Assembly (NCBI RefSeq): GCF_004762035.2 | Contig: NZ_SIJK02000004.1 | Location: 146,772 to 205,527 of the forward strand | DNA length: 58,756 nt | Reading direction: 5' to 3' | Source of the DNA: Candidatus Chloroploca mongolica | GTDB taxonomy: Bacteria > Chloroflexota > Chloroflexia > Chloroflexales > Chloroflexaceae | Shown here: positions 43,190 to 47,858 of the stretch, piece after piece | Layout of the letters: every line of letters begins with the position of its first letter | Position numbering within the stretch: position 1 is the first letter of the stretch | Notes under the pieces: generated by a model | Seen by the model: only the letters and a program-made list of their open reading frames with translations | Database searches by the model: none | What the model was told of the DNA's origin: nothing | Position numbers and translations under genes: made by a program

Positions 43190-46100
43190 ATGGATAGCAA
43201 TTCGCAATCAGGTGGTCGACATGGTGGGGGCGATCTTGTTACCGCCCTGCAACAGATTGCCCGCCAACGCACGCGCAACGAATCTCCGTTGCTTGCCGTG
43301 CAAACCTTTGCGAAACGTGCAGGGGTGCGCATTTCCCACTTGCCGATTCACCAGCATCTGGAACAGGCCTGGATCCGTGTTGTTGGTGAACCGTTTCATC
43401 AGCATCAGGCGCTGGCGCTCGCGTCTTTGCGTCGTGGTGAACCGTTGGCTCTTATGGGCGGCGCTTCTGCCGAGCAAACGCTCTCGCTGCTGCTGACGGA
43501 GTATGTGCGTGACACTTCCCCTTCGACTGCGCTGGTGCTGGTTCCCGATGATCTAAGCGCAACCCATTATGCTGCCGATCTCGTCCGGTTGACCGCAGCG
43601 TTACCCGAGCCGTTGCGTGTGGGTATCGCCGCCGGAGCCGGTGTGCGCAACGCGATGGCGGCTCAGGTGATCGTGGCGACGCCTGCAATGCTGCATCAGC
43701 GCCTCTTGCGTCACCATGATCGCGCCTGGATGGCCTTCTGGTCGCGGTTACGCACGGTGGTTTTACTCAGCGCTCATGCCTATACCGGTGTTGCTGCCGC
43801 CCACCTTGAGGCTCTGTTGCTCCGCGTGCGCCGCTTGAGCCCCGCAGGTGCCAGCCTCCAGTATATGGCAACGATGGCTCCTGTTACCGGGGGAGAAGAG
43901 GCGCTCGCTACGATGAGTAGGGTCGCCTGGCGTGTTATTTCCGCCCACGATACCCTCTCACCAGAGGTGACGCTCGCAGTCTGGCGCACGGGTGCCGAGC
44001 GGATGCGCGATCTCGTGGCGCTTACCCTTGGTCTCGCTCGTACTGCAACCTCGCTTCATGTGACCTGCCCTCCGTTTGAATTGGCGCTTGTGCAGTCGGT
44101 TGTCGGTCAGGATGAACCAGCGGTGAGTCTCGGCTTGTATGCAGTACCTGCCGATGTGCAGATCTTTCCTAGTCTGAGTGGTGTTGCTGCATCACTCCGT
44201 GCAGCGCTGGATCGCACACGGTTGATTGTCTTGATGCTAGGTGATGATCCTGCGGAGCATATGCTCGTACGTATGGCAATGCAGGATCAGTTTCCTTTGC
44301 TCGATGGTCAACCTCCTGCCTGGATTGTTGCCCCTGGCAATAGCTATATCGAGGCCCAGCATCTGCTGTGTGCCGCTAGCGAGCAGCCGTTGCAAGTCGC
44401 TGAAGTGGTGGAAGAGTGGCAGTCAATGCCTATTGTGCAGCATTTGCAACAGCAGGGTCGGCTCCGTATCTTGCCAGGATCGGCCCAGATGTGGCAACCT
44501 GCTGCTGGGCCGCAAGATCCCTATGCTGCTTTCACTGTGCAGAGCGTTGAGGGTGAAGTCGCCCGTCTTGTGAGCCCACAGGGTGCGGATCTCGGTTCGG
44601 TCACGATGACGCTGTTTGATCGCTGGGGTGCGGTCAATGCGGTCTTGCCTCCCTTTGGCCGTGGCTATCGTGTGCTCGAGCGCGATGACGTAAACCTTGT
44701 GCTGACGTTGAGTACGGCCTATGAGGCGCGCCGTACGATGCCGCTGCGCCGGTGTAGTGTGCATGTGCGCGAGCGCCGTGAACAGCGTGTGATCCGTGGC
44801 CTCGACGTCGCCTGGGGGCGGGTAACCGTTGATGAGGAGATCTATGCCCTGCGCGAAGTCAATGCCAGCAATGCGATTACGCAGGTGCCGTTGGCCGAGC
44901 CAATTATGGGGAAGTGGACCGCCCCGGCGCTCTGGATTGATCTGGTAAACGGGATCATTGCCGAGGGCCAGGTGATGGGTTGGTCGCTCGTGATGGCGCT
45001 GCCGCTTGCTACCCTTGCCTCGATCTACGATCTTGTGCCTGCGTATGATGAAGAAGCCCGCAGGCTCTATTTTGTTGATACCGAAGCAGGTGGCAATGGG
45101 GTCGCCTACTGGCTCTATCAGGCGCTTGAAACGCTCTTGCCACTTGCCTATGATATTGTGAATCAGCGCGGCCTTGATCCGCTCTTCGAGCCGGTGGCTC
45201 GTGCCGATAAGGATTGGTTACTTGCCCTGCTTGCCGGTGGGCAGACAGTTGCGCCGCCCCAGCCACGTTCGGTCGTGCGCCCTCAGTCGGTGCCACCGCT
45301 ACCTCCCCAGTCTTCGTCCCCTGCCCGTTCGCCGAATCGTCCAACAGCGATCCCTCCGACCGATGTGCGGCGTGCTGTAGTGTCACCCCCGCCCCCGCCG
45401 GGTGGGGAGGCGTCGGTGCGTGGGGCGTCAGGTGACCCGCCTGCGCCAGTGCGAGAGGGATTGCCCGGCCCGTTGGGTGGCGTGGCGTCGGTGCGTGGGG
45501 TGTCAGGTGAGCCGCCTGCGCCGGTGCGCCAGGAGTTGCCTGGCCCGCCGGGTGGAATGGCGTCAGACGAGCCGCCTGCGTCGGTGCGCCAGGAGTTGCC
45601 TGGCCCGCCGGGTGGAATGGCGCCAGACGAGCCGCCTGTGTCGGTGCGCCAGGAGTTGCCTGGCCCGCCGGGTGGAATGGCGTCAGGCGAGCCGCCTGCG
45701 TCGGTGCGCCAGGAGTTGCCTGGCCCGCCGGGTGGAATGGCGCCAGACGAGCCGCCTGTGTCGGTGCGCCAGGAGTTGCCTGGCCCGCCGGGTGGAATGG
45801 CGTCAGGCGAGCCGCCTGCGTCGGTGCGCCAGGAGTTGCCTGGCCCGCCGGGTGGCGTAAGTGGGCCGGGTAGCGAAGCGTCGCTGCCCATCGCGCCGGG
45901 AACACCTGCTGACAAACCGGATCAGGAACGTGAGTCTCCACCGCCGCCCCGGACACGTTCGTCAGGAAAAGCTCGGACGTCTTCGTCTGCACGTAAACAG
46001 CCAAAGTCAGATGCGAATGCGGCTACGCCAGAAGAAGAAGGCACGGCTCCGAGCATGCCACGTAGTCGCCGTGCCGATCAATCTTCGCGTCCACGTACGC

Positions 46101-46495
46101 AGGCTGGAGAGCCTTCCAAAGCTAATCCTCCAGCGAGCCCACCTGCGCGACCTGTGCCACCACAAGAACCGCCTGCGCCACCACAAGAACCACCACCCGT
46201 TATGCCTGACGCTGCCGCGATGGTGGAACGGCTACGGCGTATGCGTCAGCAGCAGGAAGCCCAGAAGCAGAATCCAACGACACCATCTCTGCCATCTTCG
46301 TCGAGGTTCGACCCGATTGAACCGCGTTTTCTCCCAGGTGACCAGGTGCTCTGCAATCCTTATGGGGAAGGCGAGGTTCTTGCCAGCCGGATCGAGGATA
46401 ACCGTGAAATTCTTGTTGTCGCCTTTCCCATCTATGGACATCTCACGATTGATGCCATCGTGAGTGCGGTACGTCTTGTTCAGGCACGCAGCTGA
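43190..46495 (+). CDS. Catalytically degenerate MrfA/YprA-like helicase with Pro-rich repeats and UvrD-type Tudor domain
   Basis: An 1101-residue protein. Residues 60-680 follow the motif order of MrfA/YprA SF2 helicases: HQHQALAL (70-77, Q-like), MGGASAEQTL (89-98, where an active enzyme has GKT), LVLVPDDLSATHYAADL (Ia), VATPAMLHQRLLRHHDRAW (Ib), VVLLSAHAYTGVAAAHLEAL (190-209, in place of DExH-YRG), QYMATMA (III), NSYIEAQHLLCAASEQPL, and a DUF1998-like end without its cysteines. Residues about 685-1035 are Pro/Gly/Glu-rich with 20-residue repeats (EPPASVRQELPGPPGGMA), then basic. Residues 1043-1101 resemble the PcrA/UvrD C-terminal Tudor domain (PGDQVLCNPYGEGEVL). Without Walker lysine or DE it should not hydrolyse ATP; a scaffold role in repair or at RNA polymerase is inferred. 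Confidence 0.75.
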   Translation: MDSNSQSGGRHGGGDLVTALQQIARQRTRNESPLLAVQTFAKRAGVRISHLPIHQHLEQAWIRVVGEPFHQHQALALASLRRGEPLALMGGASAEQTLSLLLTEYVRDTSPSTALVLVPDDLSATHYAADLVRLTAALPEPLRVGIAAGAGVRNAMAAQVIVATPAMLHQRLLRHHDRAWMAFWSRLRTVVLLSAHAYTGVAAAHLEALLLRVRRLSPAGASLQYMATMAPVTGGEEALATMSRVAWRVISAHDTLSPEVTLAVWRTGAERMRDLVALTLGLARTATSLHVTCPPFELALVQSVVGQDEPAVSLGLYAVPADVQIFPSLSGVAASLRAALDRTRLIVLMLGDDPAEHMLVRMAMQDQFPLLDGQPPAWIVAPGNSYIEAQHLLCAASEQPLQVAEVVEEWQSMPIVQHLQQQGRLRILPGSAQMWQPAAGPQDPYAAFTVQSVEGEVARLVSPQGADLGSVTMTLFDRWGAVNAVLPPFGRGYRVLERDDVNLVLTLSTAYEARRTMPLRRCSVHVRERREQRVIRGLDVAWGRVTVDEEIYALREVNASNAITQVPLAEPIMGKWTAPALWIDLVNGIIAEGQVMGWSLVMALPLATLASIYDLVPAYDEEARRLYFVDTEAGGNGVAYWLYQALETLLPLAYDIVNQRGLDPLFEPVARADKDWLLALLAGGQTVAPPQPRSVVRPQSVPPLPPQSSSPARSPNRPTAIPPTDVRRAVVSPPPPPGGEASVRGASGDPPAPVREGLPGPLGGVASVRGVSGEPPAPVRQELPGPPGGMASDEPPASVRQELPGPPGGMAPDEPPVSVRQELPGPPGGMASGEPPASVRQELPGPPGGMAPDEPPVSVRQELPGPPGGMASGEPPASVRQELPGPPGGVSGPGSEASLPIAPGTPADKPDQERESPPPPRTRSSGKARTSSSARKQPKSDANAATPEEEGTAPSMPRSRRADQSSRPRTQAGEPSKANPPASPPARPVPPQEPPAPPQEPPPVMPDAAAMVERLRRMRQQQEAQKQNPTTPSLPSSSRFDPIEPRFLPGDQVLCNPYGEGEVLASRIEDNREILVVAFPIYGHLTIDAIVSAVRLVQARS
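45541..45860 (+). repeat. 60-bp tandem repeats in the Pro-rich linker (120-bp higher-order unit)
   Basis: Five 60-bp units run from 45541 to 45840, with a partial sixth. Units 2+3 (45601-45720) are identical to units 4+5 (45721-45840) over 120 bp, and single units differ at only a few positions. Each codes 20 residues (PGPPGGMA, then [S/P][D/G]EPP[A/V]SVRQEL), so frame is kept. Degenerate copies extend upstream to about 45410. Confidence 0.97.
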
Positions 46496-46994: not shown

Positions 46995-47858
46995 CTATTT
47001 CCCCCTCCCCGCCTCTGCGTTAAAACCGTCTCTCTCGTCAATCCGCAACCGTTCCATCCAGGCTATCGCATAATCAACGAGGGGACGTTGTGGCACCAGG
47101 ATACCCGTCCCTACGCCCACGGTACCGCGTTGTTCGAGGCCAGTAGCCTCGGCAAAATCAGCCCCGATCTGGGCAAAATCGTGGTCATTCCAATCAAGAT
47201 CAGTCCATGTCACCCATTGCCGTTGCCCATCCAGCATCACCGGTGCTCCCGTCATAATCGTTTGTTTTTGCGGAAAATTGGCGCGGTACTCGGCCAGGTG
47301 GAGCGACGTATTGTTAGCGTGGCCGACACCGAGCAGCAGCACAAAACCAGCGCGATCATACAAGCGAGCTAGTGGTGAGCCTTCGCCGAGATTGACGTGA
47401 TACGTATGATCGGCCACAATCCACTCGGCGTGGCGACCCCATGCAGCAAATGAGACCTGAGGATGCTGACTCCGTACGACTCCCGGTTGACGACGAAAGG
47501 TTTCGGCGATCGTCCCCATCCGGCGTGAAGGAGTGAGCGCCGGATCATAGGCGGGCATATGGTCACGGATCACAGGCCACCAGGGTTCGGGGACGGGTGG
47601 AGCGACCCAGGCCGCAGGATCGGAAAGATCGGCGCTATGGGTTGGCATCACCAGGGTGCCACCGCTTCCCAGAACCTCTTCGAGGGCCAGGATCACCGCA
47701 ACCGGCCCCCCACAGACCCACCCCAAGCGACTCAAACTCGCATGCACCAGCACGGTCATACCTGCTTGCAGGCCGAGTCTACGCAGATCGTCACAGAGCG
47801 TGGCAACCGTAACAGGCATACCATCTGACTGACGTATTGCTTCTTCCTCGCGCATCAT
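46995..47858 (-). CDS. AAC(3)-family N-acetyltransferase
   Basis: A 287-residue antibiotic-NAT family protein: [78 protein letters not shown], and [18 protein letters not shown] with the conserved His-Glu pairs. The founding members acetylate aminoglycosides at N3 with acetyl-CoA, but many chromosomal homologues (YokD-like) have unknown natural substrates, and resistance should not be inferred. Upstream, TTGACA occurs but no well-spaced -10; the ATG lacks a clear ribosome site, so the start is less certain (an in-frame Met at codon 14 is the alternative). Confidence 0.9.

Follow-up and report, generated by a model that had tools for sequence, protein, structure and literature searches.

The locus and its MrfA-like body

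A 58,756-nucleotide stretch of the genome of Candidatus Chloroploca mongolica (contig NZ_SIJK02000004.1, positions 146,772 to 205,527; hereafter the window) carries, at its positions 43190-46495 on the + strand, an open reading frame (ORF) that starts with ATG and encodes an inactivated MrfA-fold protein of 1101 residues with a C-terminal Tudor domain. Body and Tudor domain are joined by a long proline-rich linker that contains a conserved basic motif, and all features described below lie on the + strand unless stated otherwise. The host genome is 6.3 Mb in size and 99.84% complete, and the nearest named relatives, judged by the protein over residues 1-692, are Candidatus Chloroploca asiatica (96%) and Candidatus Chloroploca sp. 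Khr17 (95%).

The body (residues 14-682; 43229-45235) was delimited using profile, AlphaFold, Foldseek and VIA comparisons, its inner borders being approximate, and comprises RecA1, a shortened RecA2, winged-helix and canopy regions and an MZB-like end without a complete cysteine cluster. A preliminary description of this DNA had read the body as an inactivated helicase of the MrfA/YprA type, which agrees with the profile homology, the predicted fold and the motif losses reported here. The single sequence matches the PDB chain of MrfA (6znp) with an E value of 4.6e-10, and a profile built from 40 orthologues matches it with an E value of 2.3e-47 in two stretches (chain residues 40-312 and 353-720). 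Pfam produced sub-threshold hits only, to WHD_HRQ1 (E 0.0017, residues 381-405) and MZB (E 0.048). The first of these marks the start of the winged-helix region (residues 381-405, including NSYIEAQHLLCAASEQPL; 44330-44404), in which Asn384, Glu398 and Pro400 are present in all 48 aligned orthologues. A match to the NCBIfam family TIGR03817 (putative DEAH-box helicase; E 7e-26) scores 90.7 bits, far under the cut-off of 874.1, and the protein is therefore not a member of that family.

The AlphaFold model of residues 1-692 has a predicted local distance difference test (pLDDT) score of 88.6 and a predicted template modelling (pTM) score of 0.90, and shows the overall MrfA fold with RecA1, RecA2, winged helix and canopy/MZB. 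Foldseek with this model finds 6znp with an E value of 2.9e-38, and VIA-align superimposes it on MrfA with a Z score of 32.8 (root-mean-square deviation 6.8 over 624 residues), the best non-MrfA chain giving a Z score of 23.8. The RecA-like lobes on which the preliminary description depended are thus borne out by an MrfA-like model.

Loss of the catalytic motifs across the order

Motif counts were taken from an alignment of 48 orthologues of the inactivated ('dead') form, being 50 loci minus the incomplete L050 and L023, with 25 active MrfA-type proteins from the order of the window (Chloroflexales) and the wider phylum. The active rows, chosen from search matches and not by motif, are 28 active-type ORFs minus the incomplete L156, L157 and L166, the first two of which come from outside the order. 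The dead motif I of the present protein is ALMGGASAEQTLSLLL (residues 86-101; 43445-43492). The lysine of the GK[T/S] signature is gone from all 48 dead rows and present in 25/25 active rows, and the motif I glycine is found in 6/48 versus 25/25. In the orthologue L017 a lysine stands one residue past the motif I site, and the motif II aspartate is lost there too. The motif II region reads VLLSAHAYTG (residues 191-200; 43760-43789) where the active form is DExHxYRG; its aspartate occurs in 0/48 dead and 25/25 active rows, its closing glycine is retained in 42/48 dead rows, and its glutamate, present in every active row, is kept in six of the 48 and replaced by aspartate in 27. The claim that the Walker lysine and the DExH acidic pair are missing therefore holds, with the qualification that those six rows keep the glutamate. 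Motif VI (QxxGRxGR) has arginine at neither site in 48/48 dead rows and has both in 25/25 active rows.

In the MZB cysteine cluster (CxCxxGCPxC) the third and fourth cysteines are gone from all dead rows and kept in all active ones. An end free of cysteines, as originally described for the DUF1998-like region, is found in the MZB-like end of the present protein and does not extend to all orthologues, the first cysteine being kept in 19/48. Because trimming had shortened the aligned dead rows towards the end of the body, the 50 whole dead ORFs were also scanned by pattern: QxxGRxGR and C.C(2-4)C..C occur in 0/50, and GK[ST] and DExH occur in 5/50 and 3/50, respectively, always outside the sites of motifs I and II. 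Judged by its motifs, the protein is an inactivated MrfA-type helicase throughout the order.

Outside the ATP site, Trp180, Arg212, Arg215, Asn384, Glu398, Pro400, Trp582, Gly635 and Gly637 are as in active MrfA in 48/48 dead rows and His169 is so in 96%, while Trp61, Trp184, Leu428, Pro429, Arg478 and Trp576 are invariant residues specific to the dead form. It might be supposed that the protein is a non-helicase nucleotide switch that binds nucleotide without the classical motifs, as the acidic residues found at the motif II glutamate position (Glu in 6/48, Asp in 27/48) would allow; we consider this very unlikely, given that the motif I lysine, the motif II aspartate and the motif VI arginines are lost from every row and the motif I glycine survives in only six.

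The dead gene was found in 57 of the 61 genomes of the first sample, in some as pieces; 58 give a match, from which one (G030) was subtracted since its match is an intact helicase. The three genomes without a match (G011, G018 and G057) are 86, 71 and 76% complete. In a sample of the class, searched at E<=1e-60, 71 of the 74 listed genomes of the order matched, the misses being the same three, versus 0 of 76 other genomes, where the listing was ordered by kinship and 31 unlisted genomes without a match were taken as outside the order. The best match outside the order in a sample of the phylum has an E value of 1.6e-44 (G296), and that protein (L154) has intact motifs. In a tree of 17 of the 48 dead rows and all 25 active rows, the root of which is not known, a branch with support 100/100 divides the dead rows from the active ones, the families being grouped on the dead side; if the root falls among the active rows, the dead form would have a single origin. 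The order that carries the gene includes Herpetosiphon, a non-phototroph, so that a role in photosynthesis is unlikely.

The ratio of nonsynonymous to synonymous substitution rates (dN/dS) in ten close pairs is 0.023-0.195 for the body, 0-0.132 for the Tudor domain and 0.072-0.414 for the linker, the synonymous sites of one pair (L028-L031) being near saturation. Local decay or a sequencing error, which would make the gene a pseudogene, would account for the lost catalytic motifs and for the one locus of 50 at which the frame ends in the body (L023). The same losses are, however, present in 48/48 orthologues, none of which has an intact motif I or II, no in-frame stop occurs in any listed match of the 61-genome sample, and dN/dS is well below 1 in both domains. 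Since 71 of the 74 listed order genomes carry the gene, as one clade under purifying selection, it is not a product of local decay, and the probability that we leave to a pseudogene is negligible.

A close active MrfA, defined as one with at least 50% identity to the G042 copy, is present in 17/82 order genomes (1/41 in f1, the family of the window, 5/6 in f2, 1/9 in f3 and 10/26 in f4), in three of which (G048, G140 and G148) it was seen in pieces or in part. The genome of the window, with its 99.84% completeness, shows no close active MrfA, the search returning only partial matches in frames of 566-1993 residues and the dead gene itself; a second WHD_HRQ1 match is likewise absent from it, and its five above-cut-off MZB matches lie in other frames. 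More distant intact relatives occur in a few genomes (G030, and pieces in G007). A third MrfA-like paralogue of 911-949 residues was seen in three genomes (L171, L172 and L173 in G042, G045 and G037), with intact motifs I and VI, a variant cysteine cluster and a long branch of its own.

These counts bear on the proposal that the dead protein regulates an active MrfA paralogue as its partner; the preliminary description had thought that it might tether such a paralogue to polymerase or DNA. The dead gene accompanies the close active copy in all 17 genomes that have one; the other 65 of the 82, including that of the window, lack a close copy, so the dead gene does not need an active MrfA. As a general role this proposal is refuted, and we attach very little credence to it otherwise.

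The proline-rich tail and the Tudor domain

The linker (residues 683-1043; 45236-46318) appears flexible and is fast-evolving. With about 360 residues and a proline fraction of 0.22 it corresponds to the 350-residue proline-rich tail first described, and within it lies a tandem array of a 60-bp (20-residue) repeat (45502-45855; 5.9 copies by TRF, 95% match).

Near its end is a conserved basic, helix-like motif of 18 residues, PDAAAMVERLRRMRQQQE (residues 1006-1023; 46205-46258). In 35 of the 37 tails with a readable Tudor domain it lies 38-49 residues ahead of the Tudor start pattern, and in each of these its score exceeds that of every one of 100 shuffled versions of the tail. The motif matrix was seeded by 12 sequences; with another three rows that duplicate a seed set aside, 20 of the 35 are independent of the seeds, among them those of Herpetosiphon type (L040-L043 and L049). 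The two tails that have a Tudor domain and miss the motif are L034, which scores 3.9, under its shuffles, yet at the expected place, and L044. The remaining 13 of the 50 tails, without a readable Tudor domain, were excluded from the count: ten run off the contig or the stored stretch (L004, L005, L006, L008, L012, L019, L021, L025, L027 and L029), one ends early (L023), one has masked bases (L036) and in one the frame ends first (L046, with a Tudor domain further on the same contig, L112).

Against the variable linker that surrounds them, Tudor domain and basic motif are thus fixed. The motif was also sought as a shared short motif in 21 genomes; in the genome of the window its sole match at E<=1 is the present protein (E 1.3e-11), with no second protein, and this idea was rejected. 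Genome G012 gave two matches, C606 (E 8.6e-10, in a 465-residue frame that may be the missing end of the split gene of that genome) and C95 (E 4.2e-4). This basic motif ahead of the Tudor domain is a new observation of the present analysis.

The Tudor domain occupies residues ~1044-1101 (46319-46492) and is modelled by AlphaFold with a pLDDT of 95.2. The first Foldseek match of the model is the Tudor domain of PcrA (5dma; E 1.0e-3, probability 1.00), followed among the top matches by the Tudor of UvrD1 (9dqs), the UvrD C-terminus with the RNA polymerase lobe (7egs) and with UvrB (7egt). In a profile-versus-profile comparison with hhalign, Tudors of UvrD/PcrA type from the order are matched by the family at 97.3% over 53 columns (one-against-one E value 1.7e-11), as against 9.1% for the Mfd-type domains of the order, and on this account an origin from the RNA-polymerase-interacting domain (RID) of Mfd appears unlikely. 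CarD and Mfd domains are also present in the Foldseek list (CarD E 0.010-0.066), and in a search with the sequence profile CarD chains outrank UvrD (E 0.012-0.076 versus 0.43-0.75). Pfam, run on six Tudor peptides, gave sub-threshold hits to PF21196 in two (E 0.14 and 0.022) and to CarD_TRCF_RID in one (E 0.023). Predicted fold and profile identify the C-terminal domain as a homologue of the UvrD/PcrA Tudor, in line with the preliminary description. The CarD/TRCF RID family itself is represented in 24/26 genomes, by a single match except in G039, which has two; the frames measure 496-1326 residues, and none of the size of a stand-alone CarD was seen.

The positions of PcrA residues His681, Trp684, Lys712 and Leu714 were placed on the Tudor domain of the family with an assumed PcrA sequence as reference. 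On this mapping, the equivalent of His681 is Cys in 24/24 family Tudors, that of Trp684 is Tyr, His or Trp (Trp in just 2/24), that of Lys712 is Leu, Val or Ile in 24/24, with a new Asp three positions on in 23/24, and that of Leu714 is Ile, Val, Leu or Met. For comparison, among the order's 30 Tudors of UvrD/PcrA type the His681 site is His in 30/30, this residue having formed part of the search pattern that all 30 loci matched, the Lys712 site is Lys or Arg in 24/30 and the Leu714 site is Leu or Met in 30/30. In PcrA, each of the substitutions H681A, W684A, K712A and L714A severely reduced the pulldown of RNA polymerase (PMC5397179). Binding of RNA polymerase is not supported for the present domain, because residues needed for it are replaced, and the ligand of the Tudor domain has probably changed.

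These replacements weigh on the alternative in which the protein is a repair factor linked to RNA polymerase or UvrB, its Tudor domain binding the TGE hairpin of polymerase β or of UvrB and so bringing the MrfA body, itself passive, to lesions or to sites where transcription has stalled; tethering to polymerase had been part of the preliminary description. In its favour are the homology to the Tudors of UvrD/PcrA type, the complexes with the polymerase lobe and UvrB among the top fold matches, and the polymerase-binding CarD and Mfd domains in the fold list, with CarD at the head of the sequence-profile list. A UvrB-type protein of the window's genome moreover keeps the sequence FDPLTGEVI, which resembles the PcrA partner motif (PMC8318588). 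Against it stand the replaced equivalents of His681, Lys712 and Leu714 and the absence of TGE from the inspected stretch of RpoB in this genome (residues 200-420 of the frame); the RpoB frame has two TG[ED] matches, at 144 and 567, and its SI1 region is unmapped. We regard this alternative as rather unlikely. As a separate matter, the RpoB and UvrB sequences suggest that UvrD in this organism may dock on UvrB only.

Genomic setting and proposed role

The neighbours of the gene in the window encode RuvB, a family 3 solute-binding protein, an RraA-like protein, a protein of the aminoglycoside-acetyltransferase family and an amidase. The aminoglycoside 3-N-acetyltransferase family gene (PF02522, E 1.2e-94; 46998-47858, - strand) sits between the amidase gene and the RraA-like gene. 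An all-against-all ORF comparison of 21 neighbourhoods identified no neighbour conserved across the order and recovered the dead-helicase gene itself in 20, the exception being L063, in which the contig stops shortly past the body and leaves the frame open. The other ORF groups with at least four loci span just 6, 5, 4 and 4 of the 21 neighbourhoods, the last of these overlapping the dead-helicase gene on the opposite strand. The group of five is a gene that reads as hydrolase-like, adjoins the dead-helicase gene and points away from it (L059, L060, L062, L063 and L064); all five loci are from the family of the window. An operon partner was rejected, there being nothing common to the whole order, and so was SOS control, as GAAC-N4-GTTC or CTGT-N8-ACAG lies near the start in only 1/50 loci. 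Because no neighbour is conserved across the order, the gene probably encodes a stand-alone protein.

This setting also bears on a possible role in antiphage defence, in which other YprA relatives operate as components of DISARM, Dpd, Druantia and ARMADA (PMC12458937). Weak PADLOC matches to DruE (best E 1.7e-05) are consistent with such a role. The dead gene is, however, near-universal in the order, grouped by family and without an order-wide conserved neighbour; no phage match was found, and five plasmid records gave short matches (<=29% identity) to annotated DEAD/DEAH helicases. A defence component is accordingly a highly improbable identity for this protein.

No description of the protein was found in the literature searched, which covered pseudo-helicases of YprA/DUF1998/SftH/Hrq1, Chloroflexota pseudohelicases and signature proteins of the order, was judged from listings and lay mostly outside subscription journals. 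On the sequence evidence it would be a pseudo-helicase of MrfA fold that lacks a published description within that literature. To our knowledge, eukaryotes are the better-known source of conserved pseudo-helicases, and for one of the latter, the yeast protein Utp25, we know of no MrfA canopy and no Tudor domain. Utp25, a pseudohelicase of the small-subunit (SSU) processome (PMC9539457), is alike in being a conserved helicase-like protein without helicase function, and differs in serving eukaryotic ribosome assembly. A 2025 preprint on the YprA family describes inactivated nucleases and an inactivated GTPase, but none of its six mentions of inactivation refers to a YprA helicase, and its main text is free of the word Tudor (PMC12458937).

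Compared with MrfA/YprA of Bacillus subtilis (6znp, 6znq and 6zns), a DUF1998/MZB helicase, the protein shares the fold, the domain order across the body, the winged-helix block and the GGxG of the MZB-like end, but has lost motifs I, II and VI and the complete cysteine cluster, has a shortened RecA2 and has gained the linker, the basic motif and the Tudor domain. Compared with the C-terminal Tudor of PcrA/UvrD (5dma, 7egs and 9dqs), it shares fold and profile homology but differs in the His-to-Cys replacement (24/24), the aliphatic residue at the Lys712 site (24/24) and the Asp three positions on (23/24), and is fused to a relative of superfamily 2 (SF2) helicases instead of to the superfamily 1 (SF1) helicase UvrD.

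On balance we lean, with modest confidence, towards an ATP-independent scaffold of MrfA fold, kept under purifying selection, which would hold nucleic acid and recruit a partner by its tail. The distribution and the tree, whose root is not known, suggest that the capacity to bind and hydrolyse ATP had already gone in an ancestor that predates the last common ancestor of the order. The body would then hold nucleic acid, probably DNA, without translocating, by surfaces that are still common with active MrfA, namely the P-x-x-x-H of motif Ib, Arg212 and Arg215, and the winged-helix Asn384...Glu398-x-Pro400. Passive holding of DNA is proposed on the ground that residues away from the ATP site have remained those of active MrfA and that new invariant residues arose. 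The long flexible tail, with its basic helix-like motif and its Tudor domain of UvrD/PcrA type, would recruit a protein partner to the site so held, and this partner is probably not that of UvrD, because the family as a whole shows fixed replacements at the polymerase-contact residues of the Tudor domain.

Several observations weigh against this scaffold. The RecA2 lobe is shortened in the profile alignment with 6znp, and motif Ia is mostly lost (its first proline is kept in 83% and the remainder is mostly gone), which could weaken DNA binding. One member of the family (G030; 98% complete, in 1,640 contigs) shows only an intact helicase (L083) and no dead gene, and the frame of G032 stops within the body (L023, 599 residues).

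A more specific form of the scaffold can be put forward tentatively, as possible though not the likelier course: an order-wide adaptor of genome maintenance or transcription, in which a motorless MrfA DNA clamp carries, on a tether, a captured UvrD-type Tudor domain with a changed ligand (marked by the invariant Cys and the new Asp) and a family-specific basic helix, and would recruit a factor of repair or of transcription in situations for which other bacteria rely on the ATP-driven MrfA or UvrD. Such an adaptor would have outlived active MrfA in most of the sampled genomes of the order.

In this order of filamentous bacteria the protein is probably a scaffold that sits on DNA and has no enzymatic role. 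A pseudo-helicase kept throughout the order, also in genomes without an active relative, makes the role of a motorless MrfA fold testable, and since a Tudor docking domain is joined here to another type of helicase scaffold and its known contact residues are replaced, a new partner can be sought directly.

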